This document shows positions 4,360-16,680 of a stretch of 64,000 bases of DNA, piece after piece (the stretch's first letter is position 1; each line of letters opens with the position of its first letter). The notes beneath the pieces were generated by a model that was not told the DNA's origin, did no database searches, and saw only the letters and a list, made by a program, of their open reading frames with translations. The stretch is taken from contig PAKZ01000035.1 of the NCBI GenBank assembly GCA_002706335.1, positions 62,001 to 126,000 of the forward strand, written 5' to 3'. The position numbers were made by a program, and so were the translations under genes. The DNA is from Ahrensia sp. (GTDB lineage Bacteria > Pseudomonadota > Alphaproteobacteria > Rhizobiales > Rhizobiaceae).

Positions 4360-4559
4360 GACAACTCCCTTCGTGCGGAAATCGATCTTGGGATCGATCA
4401 TCGACAGGGACCTTGGAGGTATTTTGCCATTTGGTCAATTTCTATGCACCAGCCGGAATGATAACCGCCAGATGGATGACAGGCGGCGCGAATTGAACAA
4501 GGCACCGCCGATATTGTCCGACGTCAGAGCGTCTCAAAGCGAGCCCAGCGCGCGGTTTA

Positions 4560-4793
4560 ATGAACAGAGAATCTGCTGCCCTAGCCGTCGTGCAAGCCTG
4601 GTTTCATCTACGTGAACGCGCTGGCGTTCCCGATCTCCGGTTCCATGATCTGCGTCACGAGGGCGTCAGTCGCCTCCGGGAGCGCGGTCTCAACGTGATC
4701 GAGACCGCGACCATCAGCGGACACCGGGAGCTGCGCATGCTCCAGCGTTACAGCCATCTGCGCGCTGTCGATCTGGTCGATCGACTAGAATGA
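4560..4793 (+). pseudogene. Tyrosine recombinase (integrase) C-terminal fragment
   Basis: The 77-codon frame carries the end of a phage-type integrase catalytic domain: HDLRHEG (second Arg and His), SGHRELRMLQRYSH (His and the nucleophilic Tyr in context) and a short tail. The N-terminal DNA-binding part and the first catalytic arginine are absent, and upstream sequence does not continue the domain, so this is a truncated remnant. It marks the left part of the accessory island. Confidence 0.75.
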
Positions 4794-6277: not shown

Positions 6278-7468
6278 CTAGTCAGACCCGGCGCAGGCCT
6301 TCCTGCTCAGATTCCCTAGTGCGATAGCCCCCCGCCGGTTCAAGTCGTCGTAGCTCATCATGGTAAGCCCAGCTCCAGTCCCTGACCTGTCTATCGTGCG
6401 CAGCGGCCGGCCGAGCACTCGCTTCATCTGTTTGCGGTTCTCCTTCATGAGTTCCACCCTGGCGCGATCCATGTCCCGCAATCCAACCACACCCGCCAGG
6501 AGGAAGCGCTGCAGTCTGAGGTCATCTAGCTTGCTGTGCACGAACTCGATTGGAGTTGCCGGCGCCGCAAGATCAGGAAACGTCGGGGCAGCAAAATGGA
6601 AATAGCGTCGCTGCATCTTCTGAAACCTGAAGTTCGTAAAATCAGAGATCGTCCTGATACCAAGCCGACGCACTTCCTCCCGTCCAAGAGTGACCTCGAT
6701 ACGTGCGCGTTTGTCGACGTCTTCGAGTCTCAAGCAAGTTCCGGCCGCCCGGTTTTGCCTGTCGATCTCCTTGACCATAATCCTCCACTGAACAGCACTA
6801 TGCTCTCTACCGCTGTAGAAAGTCGCGTCATGTGCCGGCGGGCGAATCGATGAGTTGTCATAGGCCCGATGATCAAGCGCCAATGCCAGGCCATTTCTCA
6901 TGCGAGGAAGGACGCCGTCCCATCGATGCCCGCTTCCCCAGACGAAACGAGGCCCCTCACCCACGTTCATCTCGACCAGCCGGCTCGGCAGATGATGACG
7001 GGCGAGAACAGCGGCCATCTTTGCCAGGAGAACGCGATCAAACGATTTCGGATAGAAATCAACGCTGATCTCAAACCGGCCAACCTGGACCTGCTCGCTG
7101 AGGTCCCACCTATTGGAAACCGCTCTCTCGATTGCCCTTAGTTCGCAGAACGCGGGGTCCTGAACGCGAATAGTGAAATCATGATATTGATCGCCGAAAG
7201 TCGGCTTTACCAGGCATGATCGTCCAATGGTTTCCAAAATGGTCGCTCTAACTGGCTTCCACTGCGTCCGGCTCTCGGTTCGAAGGTGCAGATCGACCCA
7301 GTCAACCACTGCGTTGCAGCGAAATGCGTCGTGATCGATCTCGGGGACTAACGCGACGCGATTCTTGAAACGCGCCTGGGAAGCGGGACAGGAGCCATAA
7401 GCATAGGCCAAAAAAAGCCGACCGGCGCCCTTCCGCGAGTGGAGCACTCCACGGTGACTAGATTTCAT
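6278..7468 (-). CDS. Putative replication-initiation-factor-like protein (tentative)
   Basis: This is a 396-residue basic protein without membrane segments. Features that recall the plasmid/phage replication-initiation factor family are CNAVVDWVDLHLRT at about 51-64, VGRFEISVDFYP at about 129-140 and RARIEVTLGREEVRRLG near 258-274, an order of short beta-strand motifs seen in nicking Rep proteins. I cannot place a catalytic tyrosine with confidence, so the family call is weak. Upstream of the ATG there is no strong ribosome site. The gene lies within the island among minus-strand genes of unknown function and reads toward the TGTAAAC repeat cluster about 700 bp downstream, which fits a plasmid-like or integrative-element origin. 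Confidence 0.4.
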   Translation of the reverse strand: MKSSHRGVLHSRKGAGRLFLAYAYGSCPASQARFKNRVALVPEIDHDAFRCNAVVDWVDLHLRTESRTQWKPVRATILETIGRSCLVKPTFGDQYHDFTIRVQDPAFCELRAIERAVSNRWDLSEQVQVGRFEISVDFYPKSFDRVLLAKMAAVLARHHLPSRLVEMNVGEGPRFVWGSGHRWDGVLPRMRNGLALALDHRAYDNSSIRPPAHDATFYSGREHSAVQWRIMVKEIDRQNRAAGTCLRLEDVDKRARIEVTLGREEVRRLGIRTISDFTNFRFQKMQRRYFHFAAPTFPDLAAPATPIEFVHSKLDDLRLQRFLLAGVVGLRDMDRARVELMKENRKQMKRVLGRPLRTIDRSGTGAGLTMMSYDDLNRRGAIALGNLSRKACAGSD

Positions 7469-7493
7469 GGTTTTCAGATCGCATCGAAAAGCA

Positions 7494-7518
7494 CTGCGTC
7501 ACCCAGGGAGTGACGCAG
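7494..7518 (-). terminator. Rho-independent terminator
   Basis: CTGCGTCAC and GTGACGCAG form a perfect 9-bp stem around seven bases. On the minus strand it follows the stop of the gene at 7529 and is succeeded by TGCTTTT. On the plus strand it is followed by CTTGTTTTTCTT, so it could work both ways. Confidence 0.75.
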
Positions 7519-7528
7519 CTTGTTTTTC

Positions 7529-7858
7529 TTACAGTGACAGGATCTGCGGCACTTTTTCGACGTGATCGCAAGCCTCGCCACAATCTTCGTGATAAGCGCT
7601 TTCGACTATATCTCCGATCATATCCAATTTGACGGCGGTCTCGGACGAACGGGCGAAAACCCTGGCTTCCTGCAATGCGGCTGTGGCAATCGCAAGGGCG
7701 TCATCAAGCTCGACACCATGGAAGCTATAATGAATATTATCGGCGATCTTATTCTTGATCCGGCGACAATAGTAATCCGAAATAAACAACGCCGGCGGCT
7801 GCGAATCCTGACCTGATTGTCCTGCATTGAGATTCTGCAAAGTGGGCGATAAAGTCAT
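7529..7858 (-). CDS. Small hypothetical protein
   Basis: About 109 residues, starting MTLSPTLQNLNAGQSG. I use this ATG because AAGGAGAAAATTC lies directly before it; the longer frame would add 42 Arg/Cys-rich residues without a ribosome site. The N-terminus is polar and probably disordered. The rest is mixed alpha/beta with FISDYYCRRIKNKIADNIHY and an acidic, His/Cys-containing end (SAYHEDCGEACDHVEKV). No family is recognised. It has its own terminator and lies between the Rep-like gene and another unknown gene. The two Cys and two His near the C-terminus could bind metal, but this is speculation. Confidence 0.6.
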   Translation of the reverse strand: MTLSPTLQNLNAGQSGQDSQPPALFISDYYCRRIKNKIADNIHYSFHGVELDDALAIATAALQEARVFARSSETAVKLDMIGDIVESAYHEDCGEACDHVEKVPQILSL

Positions 7859-8008
7859 GAATTTTCTCCTTGCTGTGGCTCGAATGCTTCTCACGCAGCA
7901 CCCTCTAGCCATCGTGTTCTGCTTGACATGATTGAAAAATCCGAATGGGGATCGCACCCTGCAAAGAAGCAACGCGCGATCCAACTGGCGGTCTATGTGA
8001 CCGCGACG

Positions 8009-8545
8009 CTATCCATGCAGACGGCGTTCTTCGATCTTTTGCTTAAGAAGCTCGCGGGTCGCGTAATACGCCTGTCGGTATGTTCTCACCTTCCGGCGAT
8101 CCAGCATGTCGGGCATCCCGAACCCCCGTAGCTCTTCCAGGAATTCTTCCGGAAGCGGACGTTCTGACAGGCAAACGAGTTCGAAATCATCGCGAAACCT
8201 CTTCAGGTAATCCGAGAAGTCTTTGCCACGCGTATCTCGCCTCATTTCTTCGAAAGAGCTTTGAGCCATATCGCGCGCATTGGTGTGATCCAGAAGTCCT
8301 TCAATCATTTCCTTGGTCAAATCGCCTAAGGACATGAAGATTGACGACAAGTGACCCAGCTCAAACAAAATCTCGGAAAAATCCCGGGCATCAAAAACCT
8401 GTTCGAATGAGGAGTCCAAACTTATCCCGACGTCGTTAGCATCGCATTCGATCTTAAAAAGGATTTCGCATCCTGCGTCCGTCTTCAGAAATTCGGCAAC
8501 GGTTGCAGGGCCTGAACCCAAGGTGCTATTGTATTCTTCTGGCAT
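8009..8545 (-). CDS. Hypothetical acidic protein
   Basis: 178 residues starting MPEEYNSTLGSG, with GGAGAAT upstream of the ATG. It is acidic and helical, without membrane segments, with a C-terminal charged helix (TRELLKQKIEERRLHG). I do not recognise a family. It lies between two other small minus-strand unknown genes in the island. A single ATTCAC half-site occurs just upstream (near 8554), matching the arms of the palindrome in the promoter of the next gene upstream, so shared control is conceivable but unproven. Confidence 0.6.
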   Translation of the reverse strand: MPEEYNSTLGSGPATVAEFLKTDAGCEILFKIECDANDVGISLDSSFEQVFDARDFSEILFELGHLSSIFMSLGDLTKEMIEGLLDHTNARDMAQSSFEEMRRDTRGKDFSDYLKRFRDDFELVCLSERPLPEEFLEELRGFGMPDMLDRRKVRTYRQAYYATRELLKQKIEERRLHG

Positions 8546-8662
8546 CGTATTCTCCGTGAATTGGTCAGATAGAGTGCCCGATGGTGAAATCGGGTGCTGA
8601 TGGGCAGCGCGATCATGGCTTGCTGGCTCGGTCGCGCGCGCCTTTCCTCGAATTAGCTACAT

Positions 8663-9175
8663 TCACATCTCCTTCACTTCGACCTGCGGAAAAGTCCGCC
8701 GGAAATTTCGATCCAGCTGTTCGCGCAGCTTTGTTAGCTTCACCATTTCATCGAAGGCTTCGGTTTGCGCCTCCGGTGTTTCCGGTGTGCGCGCCTTCAG
8801 ATTCGAGATTGCGAGATCGAGTTGCTCACGCTTGTAGTCGTTGATGACCCTGGAGAGTTCGGTCGCCGCATCGAGCAGAGACATGAACAGAATCTCGGCC
8901 TTGCCGATCGATCCACGATGGCGCTCGTAGAGCTCAGGATCGAGAGGCTCGATTTGTCCCGTCGCTGAATGCGGATCATCGTCGTTGTCGAAATCTGGAA
9001 GCGACACGTTTGCCATGTCGGCCAGAATCTCGATCGCCGACCAGTTCGCATGCTCGTGCGCGTATTCAAAGAACGGCAATGCAAGAAATGGGTAGGTGAG
9101 ATCGGGCATCGACTTGAGTCGCTCTTTCTCTCTTTCCAACTGTTCCTGCTTTCGTTCACGTGCTGATTTCGCCAT
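8663..9175 (-). CDS. Hypothetical protein with basic coiled N-terminus
   Basis: About 170 residues, starting MAKSARERKQEQLEREKERL, which forms a very charged helix. It is followed by DLTYPFLALPFFEYAHEHANW, an acidic linker (FDNDDDPHSA) and two further helices. AAAGGAT lies before the chosen ATG; the long upstream extension of the frame crosses the promoter and is not used. There are no catalytic motifs I recognise. It has a strong, operator-like promoter directly upstream. As the gene next to the HNH remnant and the methyltransferase operon it may be an accessory gene of the island. Confidence 0.65.
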   Translation of the reverse strand: MAKSARERKQEQLEREKERLKSMPDLTYPFLALPFFEYAHEHANWSAIEILADMANVSLPDFDNDDDPHSATGQIEPLDPELYERHRGSIGKAEILFMSLLDAATELSRVINDYKREQLDLAISNLKARTPETPEAQTEAFDEMVKLTKLREQLDRNFRRTFPQVEVKEM

Positions 9176-9194
9176 GACAAATCCTTTCGTGAAA

Positions 9195-9225
9195 GTGAAT
9201 ATAGAATTCACATTCACGATGTCAA
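9195..9225 (-). promoter_or_regulatory. Strong sigma70-type promoter overlapping a palindromic operator
   Basis: On the minus strand, TTGACA (9220-9225) and TATATT (9198-9203) are separated by 16 bases. GTGAAT (9195-9200) and ATTCAC (9206-9211) form an inverted repeat with a 5-base spacer across the -10 box, and a second ATTCAC (9212-9217) lies directly beside it. A repressor bound here would block polymerase. The regulator is not identified. Confidence 0.65.
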
Positions 9226-9461
9226 GGCTGCGTATGTCTCGCTCGGAAAAAAACACTGGAATTATCCTCGGCCGGTCCCGAAGCCGTATTTCGGACACTC
9301 CTAGGAGAGCATAGATTCGCGCTCGCATATTCCGGGCTACGTTGCCCGCACCTATGTTCCTCAGCGAAGCGCAGGCGAGCGATGCTGGTTGCAATGCAGT
9401 CCGACAGCATCCAGCACGCTGGCGCTCGTCACGGACGATCCTCGAGTCAAAGGGCGCATGT

Positions 9462-9646
9462 CTAAGTGCGCAACGTCGCCCGCAACTCGTCCATCATCAG
9501 CCAAGGCCGACGACGATGAATCATGCGATGGCAGTTCGCACAGACGAGGACCAGGTCGGTGAGCTTGGTCTTTTCGCCGGGCTGGATCTCGTGGACCAGG
9601 CGGCTTGGTGTGATGACGGATAATACGCGGAAATCTTCGAGGGAAG
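9462..9646 (-). pseudogene. HNH endonuclease C-terminal remnant
   Basis: On the minus strand, one frame reads LEDFRVLSVITPSRLVHEIQ, then TKLTDLVLVCANCHRMIHRR and WLMMDELRATLRT before a stop. The LVxVCANCHRMIH pattern is the end of the HNH motif of McrA-like nucleases, including the metal-binding CxxC and the last His. The upstream half with the first HH pair is missing, and no start codon lies in this frame, so it is a fragment. Such HNH genes often accompany restriction loci. Confidence 0.6.
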
Positions 9647-9736
9647 CCGCCGCGTATACCCATTAGGCTGGAAATACGTAGGTAGTTTGTCCTATTCATT
9701 GCAGGCGCAGCATACTCTTGGCGGTCAAAGTATTAT

Positions 9737-12397
9737 ATGAACCCGACTGATATTTACGAAGCCCTCGACGCCTTAGCGAAGGCTCCTTTTAGTTCGTCCG
9801 AATTTGCATTCCAGTTCGCCGAAGCGACAGACAACGCGAAGGCAACCTTGGCTCGCTTGCGAGCCGGCGCGCTCAACAGGTCCGATATCGACGGCGGGGT
9901 TCTGCTGAACCTCAAGTTCCATTACGCCCCGGCAGACGCCCTGGGGGTTGAAGCCACCCTAGACGCCATAAAAGGCAGCAAGCGGACTGCGAAGCACAAG
10001 CCGGCGATCCTGATCGCCACCGACGGTGAGACCGTCGCGGCCGAGCACTGGAAGAGCGGCGAGCGGCTGCATTGTGCTTACTCTGAGATCGGTGACCATT
10101 TCGGTTTCTTTCTGCCGGCCGCCGGCAAGGACCGGTATCGCCCGGCGGAGGAGAACCCGGTCGACGTCAAGGCCACTGGCAAGCTCGCCAAGCTCTATGA
10201 CGCGCTGGTGAAGGCCAACCCCGACTGGGCCGCCGATGCCCGGCGGCACGATATGAACCAATTCATGACGCGGCTGATCTTTTGCATGTTCGCCGAGGAT
10301 GTCGGGATCTTCCCGGAGAATCAGTTCTCCCGTGCGATCTTCACCCATGCCGGGGACAAGGGCGAGGAGGCGCATGACGTCCTGATCTATGCGTTCCAGG
10401 CGATGAACTCGCCCAGGAACATGCGGACCGACCTCCCGGCGTGGAGCCAAGACCTCGAATACGTCAATGGCGGCCTGTTCGCCGGCACTATCGACGCGCC
10501 GTGCTTCGACGTTATCGCCTTCCGCTATCTGCGCGAGGCCAGCGATCTCGACTGGAAAGAGATCAACCCGGACATCTTCGGCTCTATGATCCAGTCAGTG
10601 GCCGACCCCAAGGCCCGCGCCGAGCTCGGTATGCACTACACCAGTGTGCCAAACATCATGAAAGTGCTGGGCCCGCTATTCCTCGACGAGATCGACGCCG
10701 AGATCGACAAGGCCTGGGACCGGCCGAATGGGCTGCGCAAGGTTGTGGATCGGATGTCGGCGATCCGGGTGTTCGATCCGGCCTGCGGTAGCGGCAACTT
10801 CCTGGTCGTCGCCTACCGCGAGCTGCGCGCCCGCGAGATCCGCATCCTGCGGCGCCTCGGCGAGCTTGAGGGTCAGACCCAGATCCAGATGTGGTCGCAG
10901 ATCCCGATCACGAATTTCTACGGAATCGAGATCACCGACTTCTCGGCCGAGACCGCGAAGCTGGCCATGTTCATCGCCGAGTATCAGGCCAATGCCATGT
11001 TCGGCGAGGCCTTCGGACGGAAGCCTGCGGCCTTGCCGCTGAAGGGGAGTGCGAATGTTCTATGCGAGAACGCGCTCAGAGTAGAATGGTCCTCATTCTG
11101 CCCTATTGAGAACGGCGACGAGGTCTATATCGCAGGCAACCCACCATATCTCGGCGGGAAGAAGCGCGAGGCATGGCAAACGGATGACATGCGCAACTGC
11201 GGTCTCGAGGACGTCTTATTACTGGACTATGTCACGGCTTGGTTCTTCAAGGCCCAGAGACACTCGCCTACCGCGTTTGCTTTCGTCGCGACAAGCTCGA
11301 TTTGCCAAGGCGAGCAGGTGGCTCCCCTTTGGAGCAGGATGTTCAACGCTGGTCTGTCAATCAGCTTTGGTCACATGCCGTTCCAGTGGCGCAATTCTGC
11401 TGCTGATAACGCTGGCGTCTGGGTAGTCATTGTGGGGTTGCGCAATCGTCCGCGCAAGCCTGTCAGGTTGTTCGATCAAGGATGGGTTGGAACTGGTTCG
11501 ACGATCAGCCCCTATCTGTTTCTCGGTGCTGAGACCTATGTATCGGCTCGATCGACGCCAATCTCGAGGCTTCCAGAAATCGTAATGGGTTCGAACCCTG
11601 TCGACGGCAAGCGGCTGGTTCTTGCCCCCGAGGAAAAGAATTGCATCGTGAATTCTCATCCGGAAGCAGACGAGTTCATACGGCCATACCTCGGAGGCGA
11701 TGAGATACTTGGGGGGAAAGAACGGTTCTGCGTTTGGGTCGATGACGAAGCCGTGGACAGAGCAAAAGCATGCCCTCCAATTGCTGACAGGATCAGAGCA
11801 TGCGGGGAATACCGGAAAGACGCAGGCCGAGATGCACGCCGCTATCAGGACCAGCCACATCGGTTCGCCTACCGCGGGACTGTGAAAGATCTCCCTTGCA
11901 TTGCGATACCGAATTCCCAGTCCTCAAAAAGGCCCTATCTGCCGACTGCGCGCGTTCCCGCGGGCACTGTAGTAAGCAAGGAAGCATTCGCAATTTATAC
12001 CACAGAGGACTGGGTGCTCGCCATTCTCTCGTCGAGAATGCATCAAGTTTGGCTTGCAACAGTCGGCGGAAGAATCGGAAACGGATTCAGATATTCCGGA
12101 ACTCTTGTATACAATACTTTTCCTCTTCCTGGAATGACCGATGGGGATAGAGAGGAGCTGTCTGCGGCGGGGCGCCAAATCTTGAAAGCCCGATACGAAA
12201 ATTATCCTCAAAACCTCGACGAGCTTTACTCAGACGGTAACTTTCCCAAAAATCTAAAGATTGCACATGAGAAGAACGATAGAATTCTGGAAAACCTATA
12301 CTCCGGAAAAACTTTCGCAAATGATGCAGCGCGTCGAGACGTGCTAATGAAACTATACTCAGTTCGCGTTGCGAAGGAAAATGAGGAGGCCGCGTGA
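9737..12397 (+). CDS. MmeI-like class I adenine-specific DNA methyltransferase
   Basis: This 886-residue protein is predicted to transfer a methyl group from S-adenosylmethionine to adenine N6 in DNA. Motif I DPACGSGNFL begins at about residue 347 and motif IV NPPY at about 468, in the wording AGNPPYLGGK typical of MmeI-like enzymes. The segment before them, MNQFMTRLIFCMFAEDVGIF near 175-195, matches the helical spacer of that family. The C-terminal 400 residues should be the target-recognition and helical bundle region. I see no clear D-ExK nuclease motif in the N-terminal domain, unlike true type IIL enzymes, so cleavage may be delegated to the GIY-YIG protein. The 3' part, from roughly 11040, is less GC-rich than the 5' part. 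Its stop overlaps the helicase start. There is no strong ribosome site. Confidence 0.88.
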   Translation: MNPTDIYEALDALAKAPFSSSEFAFQFAEATDNAKATLARLRAGALNRSDIDGGVLLNLKFHYAPADALGVEATLDAIKGSKRTAKHKPAILIATDGETVAAEHWKSGERLHCAYSEIGDHFGFFLPAAGKDRYRPAEENPVDVKATGKLAKLYDALVKANPDWAADARRHDMNQFMTRLIFCMFAEDVGIFPENQFSRAIFTHAGDKGEEAHDVLIYAFQAMNSPRNMRTDLPAWSQDLEYVNGGLFAGTIDAPCFDVIAFRYLREASDLDWKEINPDIFGSMIQSVADPKARAELGMHYTSVPNIMKVLGPLFLDEIDAEIDKAWDRPNGLRKVVDRMSAIRVFDPACGSGNFLVVAYRELRAREIRILRRLGELEGQTQIQMWSQIPITNFYGIEITDFSAETAKLAMFIAEYQANAMFGEAFGRKPAALPLKGSANVLCENALRVEWSSFCPIENGDEVYIAGNPPYLGGKKREAWQTDDMRNCGLEDVLLLDYVTAWFFKAQRHSPTAFAFVATSSICQGEQVAPLWSRMFNAGLSISFGHMPFQWRNSAADNAGVWVVIVGLRNRPRKPVRLFDQGWVGTGSTISPYLFLGAETYVSARSTPISRLPEIVMGSNPVDGKRLVLAPEEKNCIVNSHPEADEFIRPYLGGDEILGGKERFCVWVDDEAVDRAKACPPIADRIRACGEYRKDAGRDARRYQDQPHRFAYRGTVKDLPCIAIPNSQSSKRPYLPTARVPAGTVVSKEAFAIYTTEDWVLAILSSRMHQVWLATVGGRIGNGFRYSGTLVYNTFPLPGMTDGDREELSAAGRQILKARYENYPQNLDELYSDGNFPKNLKIAHEKNDRILENLYSGKTFANDAARRDVLMKLYSVRVAKENEEAA

Positions 12398-14463
12398 TGG
12401 TGGATCTGGTGAAGGTCGCCTACGGCCGCACGGGCACATCGAAGACGACGAACGCCATGGGCATGCGGCCGATGCAGGCCCGGGTCTACGAGGCCCGCGG
12501 CGCCCAGTTCATCCTCCTGAAAGCGCCGCCCGCCGCTGGCAAATCCCGGGCGCTCATGTTCCTCGGCCTCGACAAGCTCGAGAACCAGGGTGTGCGCAAG
12601 GTGATCGTGGCGGTGCCCGAAACTTCGATCGGCGCTTCGTTCCGGTCGACCGACCTGACCTCCCACGGCTTTTTCCGAGACTGGCATGTCGAACCCCGCT
12701 GGAATCTGTGCGACAGTGGCACCGAGGAAGGGACGAAGTCGCAGAAGGTGAAGGCCTTCCAGGAGTTCATGGCCTCCGATGACGAGGTAATCGTCTGCAC
12801 CCACGCGACCTTCCGCTTCGCCTACGACGCCATCGAAGCCGAGACCGGCGCAGAGGCCTTCGACGACTGCCTGATCGCGATCGATGAATTCCACCATGTC
12901 AGCGCCGGCGACGACAACCGCCTGGGCGAGATCCTGCGGCGGCTGCTGGTGCGCGAAAAGGCGCATGTCGTAGCGATGACCGGCAGCTACTTCCGCGGTG
13001 ACAGCATCCCGGTCCTGCGGCCCGAGGACGAGGCCAAGTTCCGGTCGATCACCTACTCATACTACGAGCAGCTCGACGGATACGAACACCTCAAGTCGCT
13101 TGGCATCAGCTACAGCTTCTACCGCGGCAAATATATCTCAGCGATCCCGGACGTCCTCAATACTGACCTCAAGACAATCGTCCATATCCCGCACCGTGGC
13201 TCGGCCGAGGCCTATGGCGAAAAGAACGACGAGGTCGGTCGGATCATCGACGCAATCGGCGAGCATGTCGGGCGAGACAAGGTGACCGGCTTCGATCTGG
13301 TCCGCCGCAAGTCGGACGGCAAGATCCTCAAGGTCGCGGACCTGGTGAACGACAACGAGGAACGTGGCGGGGTGAAGGCCGCCCTGACTCGCGAGATCAC
13401 CGGCCCAGAAGGCCGCCGGGACGATGCGGCGGACCGCGACAAGGTCGACATCATCATTGCGCTTGGCATGGCCAAGGAAGGCTTCGACTGGCCCTGGTGC
13501 GAGCACGCCCTGACGATCGGTTACCGCTCCTCGCTCACAGAGATCGTTCAGATCATAGGGCGCGCAACACGGGACGCCGCGGGAAAGTCCCATGCCCAGT
13601 TCACCAACCTGATCGCCGAGCCTGGCGTCGAGACGACAGTCGTGGCCGATGCGGTCAACGACATGCTGAAGGCAATCTCGGGCGCGTTGCTGATGGAGCA
13701 GGTGCTTCAGCCGAACTTTCGCTTCTACCGGCGCGAAGACGGCGACATCCGCGAACCGGTCCATTTCGATGACACTGGCACCATCCACATCGGCATTAAG
13801 GGGCTGATGGAGCCGCCGACCGATCGATCGAAGGCGATCTGCGAGAACGACATGCAGGATCTGATTGCCAAGGCGTGTCAGGCCATGGATTGCCGCACTG
13901 TCGCTGACGACATCGCACCCGAGGTCGCCACCCAGATGGTGCTCACCGACATCATCGAGCAAAGCTACGAGGATCTCTCCGAGGACGAGACGGAGGCGAT
14001 TCGTCAAGATCTGGCGGCGCGCATGAACATCACCTCAATCGCCCGCAAGGAAGCGGAACAGGCGTCGTCGCAATCGGAGTTTTCGGAAGACTCTGAGGAG
14101 TTCGAACACGCGCCGGACGGCATGAACCTGATCAACATGGTGAAGAAGTTCATTAACGTGCGAGAGCTCGACATTGATTTGATCGACGGTATCAACCCGT
14201 TCCGAGAAGGCTTCGACGTCGCCTCGAAGGCGTTAGACACACCGCTTTTAAAACAGATCCAGAGCGCCATGATCGCGCAGCGCATCCAGATGACCGAGGA
14301 AGAGGCGCGCACGCTCTGGCCGCGGATCAAGCGTTTCCGCGAGGCCGAGGGGCGGGAGCCGAACCCGCATGCAGCCGACCCCCTGGAGAAGCGCATGGCC
14401 GAGGCTCTCGCTTATATTCGCGCCAAGAAAGCGGAACGGATGCGCTCCGCCGCCGCGGGGTGA
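12397..14463 (+). CDS. DEAD/DEAH-type superfamily 2 helicase
   Basis: This 688-residue ATPase has helicase motifs in order: Walker A APPAAGKS at about residues 43-50, Walker B variant DEFH at 163-166, motif III-like TGSYF, and motif VI QIIGRATR from about 385. Motif IV/V-like ALGMAKEGFDWP precedes it. The C-terminal 250 residues are acidic and helical with no motif I know. I choose the ATG in TGATG, which overlaps the methyltransferase stop by one base and has GGAGG seven bases upstream; a GTG three bases earlier is also possible. The arrangement implies translational coupling and a shared complex, probably as DNA translocase between modification and cleavage subunits. Confidence 0.88.
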   Translation: MVDLVKVAYGRTGTSKTTNAMGMRPMQARVYEARGAQFILLKAPPAAGKSRALMFLGLDKLENQGVRKVIVAVPETSIGASFRSTDLTSHGFFRDWHVEPRWNLCDSGTEEGTKSQKVKAFQEFMASDDEVIVCTHATFRFAYDAIEAETGAEAFDDCLIAIDEFHHVSAGDDNRLGEILRRLLVREKAHVVAMTGSYFRGDSIPVLRPEDEAKFRSITYSYYEQLDGYEHLKSLGISYSFYRGKYISAIPDVLNTDLKTIVHIPHRGSAEAYGEKNDEVGRIIDAIGEHVGRDKVTGFDLVRRKSDGKILKVADLVNDNEERGGVKAALTREITGPEGRRDDAADRDKVDIIIALGMAKEGFDWPWCEHALTIGYRSSLTEIVQIIGRATRDAAGKSHAQFTNLIAEPGVETTVVADAVNDMLKAISGALLMEQVLQPNFRFYRREDGDIREPVHFDDTGTIHIGIKGLMEPPTDRSKAICENDMQDLIAKACQAMDCRTVADDIAPEVATQMVLTDIIEQSYEDLSEDETEAIRQDLAARMNITSIARKEAEQASSQSEFSEDSEEFEHAPDGMNLINMVKKFINVRELDIDLIDGINPFREGFDVASKALDTPLLKQIQSAMIAQRIQMTEEEARTLWPRIKRFREAEGREPNPHAADPLEKRMAEALAYIRAKKAERMRSAAAG

Positions 14464-14467
14464 ATGT

Positions 14468-15691
14468 ATGCCGCGCCCGACGCTTGACGAGATCTTTGAC
14501 GAACCGGACGAGTTCGGTCTGCTCGATGTCCAGCTGAAACCGCGCGGCACGCGGCCGCCGGAGCTCGAGCGCGACGCGGGTCTCGTGCGTGAGGTGAACG
14601 ATTTCTATGACCGGCATGGCCGGCTGCCGAACGAGGACGCCGCCGATCACGATGAGATGCGGCTCGGAACGATCTGGAGCGGTCTTTCAGGACGCGCCGA
14701 CCCTGAGGTTTTTCGCGATGTCGATCGCAATGGGTTGCTTGCCATGGCGCCGGTCGACGATGCGCCGCCGGCCCGCGATTGGCGCGACGATCCCCTTGAG
14801 GACGAGATCCCAGACAGCCTGGACGACATCTTCGATGAGGACGACGAAGACCTGTCCGAAGCGTTCACGCGGATCGAGCACGTTACGCGGGTGGCCGAAC
14901 GCAACCTTCCAGACCACCGGGCCGAGTTCTTCCCTTGCCCCGATTTCGAGGTCTTTCGGCCGGCTTTCGAGGAACTCCAGGCGGAGCTTGAGGTCGGCAC
15001 CAGGGAGGCAACGGCCGTAGGCGCGCGCGAGGTGATCGATGTCCAGGAGGGCAGCTACTTCATTCGGAACGGGCTCCTGGCTTATATCGCGGAGAAGGCC
15101 GAGATGACCGCCCGCGGCGGCAAGCGGGATCATCGCCTCCGGGTTATCTTCTCGAACGGCACCGAGAGCGATCCGCTGATCTCATCCTTTCGCAAGGCGC
15201 TTGCCGCCGATCCTACAGCGCGCATTATACACCGTCCCGGTCTCGGACCGCTTGACCCAGATTGGGAGGCAGACCAACTCGACCTGACTGGCACAATCTA
15301 TGTTGCCAGGAGTCGATCCGAGGAGCCGGCGATTAAAGAAGTCCGCGACATACTCCTCAAAATCGGCGTTACGACCCAGGACGTGAACAGGCGCGTTGCC
15401 GATGCCCGTAATGATCCAACGTTCCTTCTCGCAGCTGTCGATATAATCGCGACCTACGAATTGAAGAACCTGTCCCGACAAAAAGTTGAGAGACTCCTGC
15501 ATCGCTTCTTCGACGCCGCCAGACCTCAGGACCTGTGGATTAAGGATCGTTTCGGCCGGAAAGTGCGACCGAGAGAGTGGTTCTATTTACTGCCAGAGCA
15601 TGTAGCGCAGGCGGTCCGGGCGATACGTGCGGGGACATTGCACCAGCTTCGATATGATCCTGAGCAGCAGCGGATTGTTCCCGCCGAATGA
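14468..15691 (+). CDS. GIY-YIG (T5orf172/MUG113-like) nuclease protein
   Basis: 407 residues. The C-terminal 130 form a GIY-YIG domain: GTIYV at 275-279, KIGVT at 298-302, arginines 308-309, a conserved N334 and the metal-binding E341 in KVERLLHRFF, then VRPREWF, the usual end of the T5orf172 subfamily. The first 270 residues are acidic, with DDIFDEDDEDLSEAF near 120-134, and probably mediate contacts with the partners. The ATG used lies four bases after the helicase stop. An upstream frame extension overlaps the helicase and is rejected. All catalytic residues look intact, so it is the likely cleaving subunit. The nuclease-coding half is less GC-rich than the first half. Confidence 0.85.
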   Translation: MPRPTLDEIFDEPDEFGLLDVQLKPRGTRPPELERDAGLVREVNDFYDRHGRLPNEDAADHDEMRLGTIWSGLSGRADPEVFRDVDRNGLLAMAPVDDAPPARDWRDDPLEDEIPDSLDDIFDEDDEDLSEAFTRIEHVTRVAERNLPDHRAEFFPCPDFEVFRPAFEELQAELEVGTREATAVGAREVIDVQEGSYFIRNGLLAYIAEKAEMTARGGKRDHRLRVIFSNGTESDPLISSFRKALAADPTARIIHRPGLGPLDPDWEADQLDLTGTIYVARSRSEEPAIKEVRDILLKIGVTTQDVNRRVADARNDPTFLLAAVDIIATYELKNLSRQKVERLLHRFFDAARPQDLWIKDRFGRKVRPREWFYLLPEHVAQAVRAIRAGTLHQLRYDPEQQRIVPAE

Positions 15692-15875: not shown

Positions 15876-15917
15876 GCACCCGGAGCTCAGCTGGATAGAG
15901 CGCTGCCCTCCGAAGGC
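15876..15917 (+). pseudogene. tRNA-Arg(CCG)-like 5' half
   Basis: It reads GCACCCG (acceptor 5' strand), then GAGCTCAGCTGGATAGAGC (D-arm with the usual AGCTCAG and GAGC) and CTGCCCTCCGAAGGC, an anticodon arm with CCG. Similarity stops inside the 3' side of the anticodon stem. The missing remainder resembles the inverted half at 15751-15790. Confidence 0.6.
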
Positions 15918-16533
15918 TATTTACGAGCGGGCGCTCGAGAAAACCTTCGGCACTAAAATGTGATCTGCCGGATGCCGGGACCGAGTGCACCCGTTAGCCG
16001 CTTTGACTGTCGGACTAAGATCCACCCTCGAAATTTCTCGAAGACCCTCTTAGCCTTAGCCAAACCGCTTGATGGTGATTCATGCTTGATAAGCAATCAC
16101 TTATTTGCGCGCCGCTGATATTTCGGCTATTTCTTGGGACGGGAGTGCTGCCGGAATGTCCGAGCCGTTTCCTTAGATGATGAAGTCGACCCGGAGATGC
16201 ACCGACCAAGCGCTCCGGGTCTTCCTTCTCGAAGCAGCCGGGAATTAAAGTCGCAACCTAGGCCACGATGTTTGTGACATGCACCCCGGGTAATGGTTGT
16301 CCGGCGACCTCGGATCCAAGATACGCCAAGCTTGAATTTTGGCTATGCAATCAGAGACGCAAGAGCAGCTGACACGATGGCGTCTTGCCGCTTGTCACAA
16401 ACATATGCTCCTGAAAGAGGTCTCGCGATCTCCACAAGATTTCATCACAAACTGATGCTCGCCACAATGTTACAATAACTCGACTTCGAAAGAGATAAAA
16501 GCGTGAAAAATCAGATGTTTGACAGATCAGAAT

Positions 16534-16561
16534 TTGAGTTCAAATCTCTCCGGCAGCACCA
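16534..16561 (+). other. Isolated tRNA/tmRNA-like 3' end with CCA; possible attachment site
   Basis: The stretch contains GAGTTCAAATCTC (T-loop-like, with short flanking complementarity) followed by TCCGGCAGCACCA, as at the end of a tRNA or of the acceptor piece of tmRNA. No matching 5' part lies upstream. Integrases often leave such a 3' fragment at one edge of an island. The identity of the parent RNA gene is not settled. Confidence 0.35.
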
Positions 16562-16680
16562 TTCGAACTTCAGCAAAACTGTGCATGGTTTTTTGTCCGT
16601 GCAAAACGAATCCTTACCCAGACGACGCTGACGTTTCGTTTGCCGGCGGGTGAGCGCTGCTGGATCAGCTGAACCGTCAT

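Follow-up and report, generated by a model that had tools for sequence, protein, structure and literature searches.

An intact DnmA-YeeB-YeeC gene trio in a genomic island of Ahrensia sp.: a probable split restriction-modification system whose relatives carry cargo in a fixed slot

Anatomy of the operon

A 64,000-nucleotide stretch of Ahrensia sp. DNA (contig PAKZ01000035.1, positions 62,001 to 126,000 of the forward strand; 'the window' refers throughout to this whole stretch) carries, at 9737-15691 on the plus strand, an operon of three tightly packed, open frames, which is a new intact copy of the known, little-tested DnmA-YeeB-YeeC family. Gene 1 (9737-12397; 886 amino acids) encodes a dnmA/yeeA-like adenine-specific DNA methyltransferase of the MmeI family, as identified by Pfam and Foldseek; gene 2 (12397-14463; 688 amino acids from its ATG) encodes a yeeB-like superfamily-2 helicase/translocase with ResIII and Helicase_C matches; and gene 3 (14468-15691; 407 amino acids) encodes a yeeC-like GIY-YIG nuclease of the T5orf172 type (MUG113, E = 3.7e-12; T5orf172, E = 2.4e-10). 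MUG113 and T5orf172 belong to the GIY-YIG clade. Genes 1 and 2 overlap by one base within TGATG (TGA stop at 12395-12397, ATG at 12397-12399), with a GTG at 12394 as an alternative start for gene 2, and a gap of four bases separates the gene 2 stop from the ATG of gene 3 at 14468, the longest open frame of gene 3 beginning at 14369. An earlier note on this DNA, made from the sequence alone, had described three plus-strand genes with a one-base overlap and a four-base gap, and our coordinates agree with it. No recognisable sigma-70 promoter was found upstream of gene 1, and promoter and terminator matches fell within the range obtained from shuffled sequence.

A methyltransferase that has kept a nuclease domain and lost its motif

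Gene 1 matched MmeI_N, MmeI_hel, MmeI_Mtase, MmeI_TRD and MmeI_C in Pfam (E = 4.8e-92 to 2.5e-10). The degenerate N-terminal nuclease domain lies at 9737-10213 (plus strand; residues 1-159; PF20464, E = 2.3e-22), the methyltransferase domain with FDPACGSGNF and NPPY at 10706-11473 (plus; residues 324-579; PF20473, E = 4.8e-92), and the target recognition domain (TRD) at 11528-12130 (plus; residues 598-798; PF20466, E = 1.7e-65). An AlphaFold model built on a 67-sequence alignment has a predicted local distance difference test score (pLDDT) of 90 and a predicted template-modelling score (pTM) of 0.78; its top Foldseek match is MmeI (5hr4; E = 7.7e-56, 33% identity, template-modelling score 0.89 by target). 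The model also resembles PglX/BrxX (E about 5e-12); MmeI is far closer.

The nuclease residues of MmeI itself are D70, E80 and K82 (PMC4833311; this and the other papers given by PMC number are cited from excerpts). When 83 non-redundant trio methyltransferases were aligned with two intact MmeI-like proteins, the PD-ExK columns held the D in six of the 83, the E in one and the K in none, and the window copy has none of the three residues. Not one of 105 trio methyltransferases contains the strict motif, (V or I)D-x9-ExK; a looser expression matched six of the 105, a lower rate than in shuffled sequences (182 of 2100), and these six bear no resemblance to an intact sequence. Residues D96 and E103 of gene 1 were considered as a nuclease motif and rejected, as alignment to intact homologues places the motif about 40 residues earlier.

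Outside the trio, the MmeI_N profile gave 20 matches in 101 genomes (that of the window and its relatives), and the strict motif was present in 17 of the 17 distinct genes examined. These 17 came from 20 frames, two genes occurring twice and one being split, and in one gene the motif lies just before the start codon used; the three matches left out, all weak or partial, are L178, L179 and another on G005:C13. The genome of the window encodes another MmeI-family protein on a different contig (C3:35290-37335; L188, 7231-9792) that has kept PD-ExK, and no YeeB or YeeC match was found in the 18 kb around L188. Because the domain still matches while the motif is absent from the trio enzymes, the trio lineage appears, as judged from sequence, to have kept the nuclease domain with its active site gone. 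The earlier note had seen no N-terminal nuclease and had suggested structure prediction as a check: the MmeI fold was recovered and the domain is present, so that what stands of the claim is the loss of the catalytic motif.

Conserved motifs of the helicase and the nuclease

The window helicase contains PPAAGKS, DEFH and QIIGRATR, and the Walker A GKS, DEFH and QIIGRATR form invariant columns in an alignment of 12 helicases; a Pfam scan found no nuclease family on this protein. The nuclease contains GTIYV, KIGVT and Glu341, and among the 15 positions invariant in 100 aligned homologues are G275, Y278, K298, G300, R309, E341, H345, E370 and W371. The motifs that had been reported as intact in all three proteins are therefore all present.

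A search of defence-system profiles, also proposed in the earlier note, gave a divided result. In PADLOC 2.0.0 the methyltransferase is the sole full-length match (type IIG, E = 6e-240), and the helicase and nuclease give weak, domain-level matches only (PbeA, E = 3e-6; PDC-S57, E = 5e-7). In PHROGs the methyltransferase has four matches (three of unknown function), the helicase one (DNA helicase) and the nuclease none.

Linkage and co-divergence of the three genes

The helicase alignment was the only query used on genome contigs; it gave at least 558 relatives, of which the best 80 were kept and all examined. In 74 of the 80 loci the helicase has a methyltransferase upstream and YeeC downstream, all on one strand. 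The other six are at contig ends: one lacks YeeC, with 37 bases downstream, and five show no methyltransferase in the 122-1880 bases upstream, which is too short a stretch to rule one out on the far side of a cargo gene. On viral contigs both partners were found at 30 of 43 loci; nine lack the methyltransferase, with only 0-956 bases upstream, and four lack YeeC, one of them at a contig end. Among 398 genomes sampled across the phylum, YeeB is present in 24 and YeeC in all 24 of these, two extra YeeC matches being fragments of 78 and 46 residues. In the 101 genomes noted above, YeeB and YeeC occur in the same 11, not counting an additional YeeB match of 30 residues in one of those 11 genomes. 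Eleven further trios were retrieved through YeeC itself and are uninformative on its presence.

The three proteins have also diverged together: across 101 complete trios their pairwise distances are correlated (0.897, 0.914 and 0.885), and none of 500 permutations reached these values. Chance adjacency of the three genes is ruled out by the linkage counts. The earlier note had named homologues occurring mainly without the other two genes as evidence against its reading; the opposite was seen, and the near-constant association of the partners supports its proposal that modification, translocation and cleavage are divided over three proteins acting as one unit. In the helicase tree the window copy is one of 15 helicases that form a separate clade, most of them alphaproteobacterial.

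Helicase relatives, at least partial, were found in 263 plasmid records; in 153 of these a single place spans 80% or more of the query. Many Acinetobacter plasmids (for example H116-H119 and H121-H127) hold parts of the helicase only (24% or 76% of the full length). Genes named yeeA, yeeB or yeeC lie within the OXA-23 transposons Tn2006 and Tn2009 (PMC9258068).

Diversification of the recognition domain

Over 614 non-independent pairs with helicases 70-98% identical, the recognition domain is the most divergent region between close relatives: mean identities are 0.68 for the N domain, 0.74 for the spacer, 0.69 for the methyltransferase, 0.44 for the recognition domain and 0.80 for the C domain, and for the partner proteins in the same pairs 0.76 (YeeB) and 0.59 (YeeC). 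Among the closely related viral loci L117, L118, L119 and L147 (four pairs), methyltransferase DNA aligns at 75-92% on either side of an unalignable stretch of 0.6-0.9 kb that covers the recognition domain. This is the pattern of divergence shown by restriction-modification systems when new specificities are selected for.

A cargo slot between methyltransferase and helicase

The window copy has nothing between gene 1 and gene 2, and relatives often do. The methyltransferase-helicase gap exceeds 150 bases at 45 of 121 loci (window, 0 of 1; relatives, 10 of 11; genome contigs, 24 of 75; viral contigs, 11 of 34, some of the viral loci being near-copies). The helicase-YeeC gap is at most 19 bases at all 130 loci with YeeC within 3 kb, and cargo was found there at none of them. 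Where the slot exceeds 300 bases it holds same-strand frames in 43 of 44 cases, filling a median 0.98 of the gap; these frames, called mechanically with the longest first, abut both neighbours (-60 to +30 bases) in 22 of 44, often through four-base overlaps.

The slots encode 59 proteins of at least 90 amino acids in 33 clusters, and 30 slot proteins were scanned with Pfam. Eighteen scored over the cut-off, to Schlafen AlbA_2, RhuM, YhcG/DUF1016, GmrSD_N, Fic, Abi_C, PIN, FRG, DUF3800, CcdB, CoiA, PDDEXK_4, KilA-N, Bro-N and AAA families; two scored under it (Abi_2, HTH_11); and ten gave nothing at E = 0.01. These ten, of 139-365 amino acids (L015, L017, L018, L019, L020, L061, L081, L093, L098 and L128), are candidates for unknown defence effectors, and the fixed position of the slot offers a simple rule for finding more defence genes, given that 10 of 30 scanned proteins lack a Pfam family. 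Ten of the scanned slot proteins were also compared with PADLOC: four matched nothing and six matched, three strongly (PDC-S05, L023; PDC-S02, L088; SoFic, L016) and three weakly (HEC-05, L014; PD-T4-5, L031; pAgo, L054).

On a helicase tree made by a quick method, in which 35 of the 101 rows carry cargo, the distribution of cargo requires at least 24 changes, 18 of them forced by well-supported branches. Shuffled cargo labels required a mean of 29.2 changes, and 13 of 500 shuffles were as low as the observed value; cargo is thus only somewhat clustered on the tree. Between near-identical loci the slot also differs: L119 (4840-10747) has a RhuM-type gene there and L117, L118 (7085-12043) and L147 have 90 bases, their helicase DNA being about 92% identical to that of L119.

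The RhuM-type protein of L119 matched 125 plasmid records; among the 25 listed, six were opened, and four of these lie in type I operons adjoining hsdM, hsdS or hsdR and two elsewhere. For YhcG, 480 records matched; among the 25 listed, three were opened, one of which is in a DnmA-YeeB-YeeC slot and two in no restriction operon. Defence genes embedded in type I operons are known, namely TgvAB (PMC12409362) and DarTG2 (PMC12255303), and a 2024 preprint by Payne et al. on embedded defences is named in the reference list of PMC12255303. The excerpts and search results that made up the literature covered hold no mention of embedded cargo in the DnmA-YeeB-YeeC trio, and the repeated insertion of unrelated defence- or toxin-like genes in its slot is apparently unreported before.

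A speculative and rather improbable extension is that the trio is a general chassis and not just a cutter, in which the methyltransferase-motor-nuclease complex checks DNA for self marks and a co-expressed slot effector may be unleashed. The trigger for release would be unmarked DNA that the complex has found or cut, or inhibition of the complex by a phage. If true, this would couple self/non-self inspection of DNA to interchangeable abortive-infection modules drawn from cargo families that type I systems also use, the window copy being an unarmed form.

Genomic island and neighbourhood

The operon lies in an integrative island of about 35.4 kb (C35:43062-78564), bounded by an intact tRNA-Thr(GGT) gene at C35:43062-43136, outside the window and next to a gene for a 523-residue tyrosine integrase, and by a 29-bp plus-strand repeat of the 3' end of this tRNA at 16536-16564 in the window. 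The trio is about 0.85 kb inside the right end. Further island genes encode a molybdopterin oxidoreductase, multicopper oxidases and NnrS, which suggests nitrogen-oxide respiration. No empty insertion site was obtained: in a genome of the same genus the LysR/ABC block that adjoins the island is 85% identical and has a putative aroE (read from DNA) next to it instead, and its contig matches the window only up to 16701.

The HNH remnant and mobile-element debris mentioned in the earlier note are real. The former is the C-terminal part of an HNH endonuclease at 9462-9662 on the minus strand (PF01844, E = 4.7e-4 over 27 residues, just under the Pfam cut-off), and a C-terminal fragment of a tyrosine recombinase (integrase) lies at 4497-4793 on the plus strand (PF00589, E = 5.8e-9). 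Four minus-strand frames of 151-396 amino acids at 6278-9394 have no above-threshold match in Pfam, PADLOC or PHROGs. Between the trio and the island end, the stretch 15880-15918 resembles, by eye, the 5' half of an arginine tRNA and is perhaps the scar of another integration; ARAGORN found no tRNA in the window.

Interpretation and alternatives

We interpret the window trio as a split three-protein restriction-modification system of the DnmA-YeeB-YeeC family that works like a type ISP (half type I) enzyme in pieces, and put the probability of this at roughly 0.72. The methyltransferase would use its own recognition domain to read a short, probably asymmetric site and methylate one adenine, marking self DNA. 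At an unmarked site it would load the helicase, which would translocate along DNA driven by ATP, and the GIY-YIG protein would cut, probably where two motors that set out from opposed sites run into each other or stall. For the window trio we infer the activities of methylation, complex formation, translocation, cutting and the restriction of phage or plasmid, and defence, which the earlier note had offered as a candidate role, is on sequence grounds its probable one. A type I-like system was proposed for the trio by Morgan et al. 2009 (as cited in PMC9973331 and PMC7261158), and Vibrio crassostreae became more sensitive to certain phages on deletion of dnmA and of yeeB (as cited in PMC9973331).

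Several points weigh against this interpretation. The V. crassostreae mutants were unaffected towards other phage subclades (as cited in PMC9973331). In Bacillus subtilis, deletion of dnmA left plasmid transformation unchanged, deletions in the locus left infection by three phages unchanged, and the authors call the locus a relic (PMC9973331, PMC7261158). Three viral loci (L142, L149 and L150) are broken copies in which the helicase is truncated and YeeC is missing, although more than 5 kb of sequence follows downstream. The nuclease model is locally confident (pLDDT 88.4) with uncertain domain placement (pTM 0.43), and Foldseek gave no confident whole-protein match for YeeC, its weak matches (best E = 0.015) being to SH3/Tudor/EF-P-like barrels in the middle domain.

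The B. subtilis results would fit a relic in which the methyltransferase alone is active, as an orphan epigenetic regulator, and the helicase and nuclease are carried along as passengers; this has been proposed for that species, where DnmA makes N6-methyladenine at GACGAG and this active mark regulates genes (PMC7261158). We consider such a state unlikely for the window copy, as all three genes are open with their invariant residues kept, partners are retained across phyla, and the B. subtilis YeeB and YeeC have missing stretches (PMC9973331). The location of the trio within a tRNA-Thr island, close to its right boundary, together with the plasmid records described above, would suit a module with the same chemistry that is selected for maintaining its island or plasmid, by excluding rivals or killing cells that lose it; this we hold to be slightly less probable again, and it is compatible with a split restriction-modification system, not exclusive of it. 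BREX (bacteriophage exclusion) systems exclude phage without a dedicated cutting step, and the structural similarity of the methyltransferase to PglX/BrxX would allow for a motor that blocks unmodified phage DNA without cutting. That this is so here seems very improbable: almost every locus also encodes a nuclease, its catalytic residues invariant, MmeI is the far closer relative of the methyltransferase, and the scanned frames include no pglZ or brxC.

If a split restriction-modification system is indeed what the trio encodes, and if it cuts, it bears on how one-strand marking of an asymmetric site spares newly copied own DNA. The family is widespread across the sampled phylum genomes, yet PADLOC 2.0.0 sees only its methyltransferase at full length, and the conflict between B. 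subtilis (no effect) and V. crassostreae (effect) makes an intact copy worth testing.

Comparison with known systems

Neither DISARM (defence island system associated with restriction-modification) nor BREX accounts for the locus. No drmA, drmB or drmC, and no pglZ or brxC, was found on the helicase, the nuclease or the six nearby frames scanned, which agrees with the earlier note's statement that these partners are lacking. The methyltransferase matches the DISARM protein DrmMI at E = 1e-29, far less strongly than type IIG, and its PglX profile matches in PADLOC are weak (best E = 3e-6).

The window methyltransferase has the domain order and fold of type IIL MmeI, and plasmid records beside helicase relatives (H19, H111) label the methyltransferase as such. 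In MmeI, however, the N-terminal nuclease is active, whereas in the window its motif is lost, and the motor and the nuclease are each a protein of their own; the absence of PD-ExK rules out a true type IIL enzyme. Type ISP enzymes are single chains of nuclease, translocase, methyltransferase and TRD that need two head-to-head sites, and those such as LlaGI combine, as the window does, a translocase with a gamma-methyltransferase that has one recognition domain (PMC3874165). They are one polypeptide with an Mrr-like nuclease, whereas the window system is three polypeptides with a GIY-YIG nuclease; since the type ISP family is defined by its single chain, the window system is no member of it. 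Type I HsdRMS systems resemble the trio in having separate motor and modification genes, and the RhuM cargo family also occurs inside their operons; in the window, by contrast, HsdS is lacking, the methyltransferase itself carries the specificity, and the nuclease is a separate GIY-YIG protein, unlike HsdR, in which PD-ExK and motor are fused.

The closest likeness is the dnmA-yeeB-yeeC cluster, described in B. subtilis and conserved in other bacteria (PMC9973331, PMC7261158), so that the earlier note's view that the operon could not be named as a described system does not hold. The two agree in gene order and strand, and in a PD-ExK-less MmeI-like methyltransferase, a superfamily-2 helicase and a T5orf172/GIY-YIG protein. 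A B. subtilis control genome gave matches for PF20473, PF20464 and PF10544, and a Bacillus mediterraneensis trio (L049) is among the relatives. The window trio belongs to a separate clade, and is likened to the B. subtilis cluster through the published description and profile matches.

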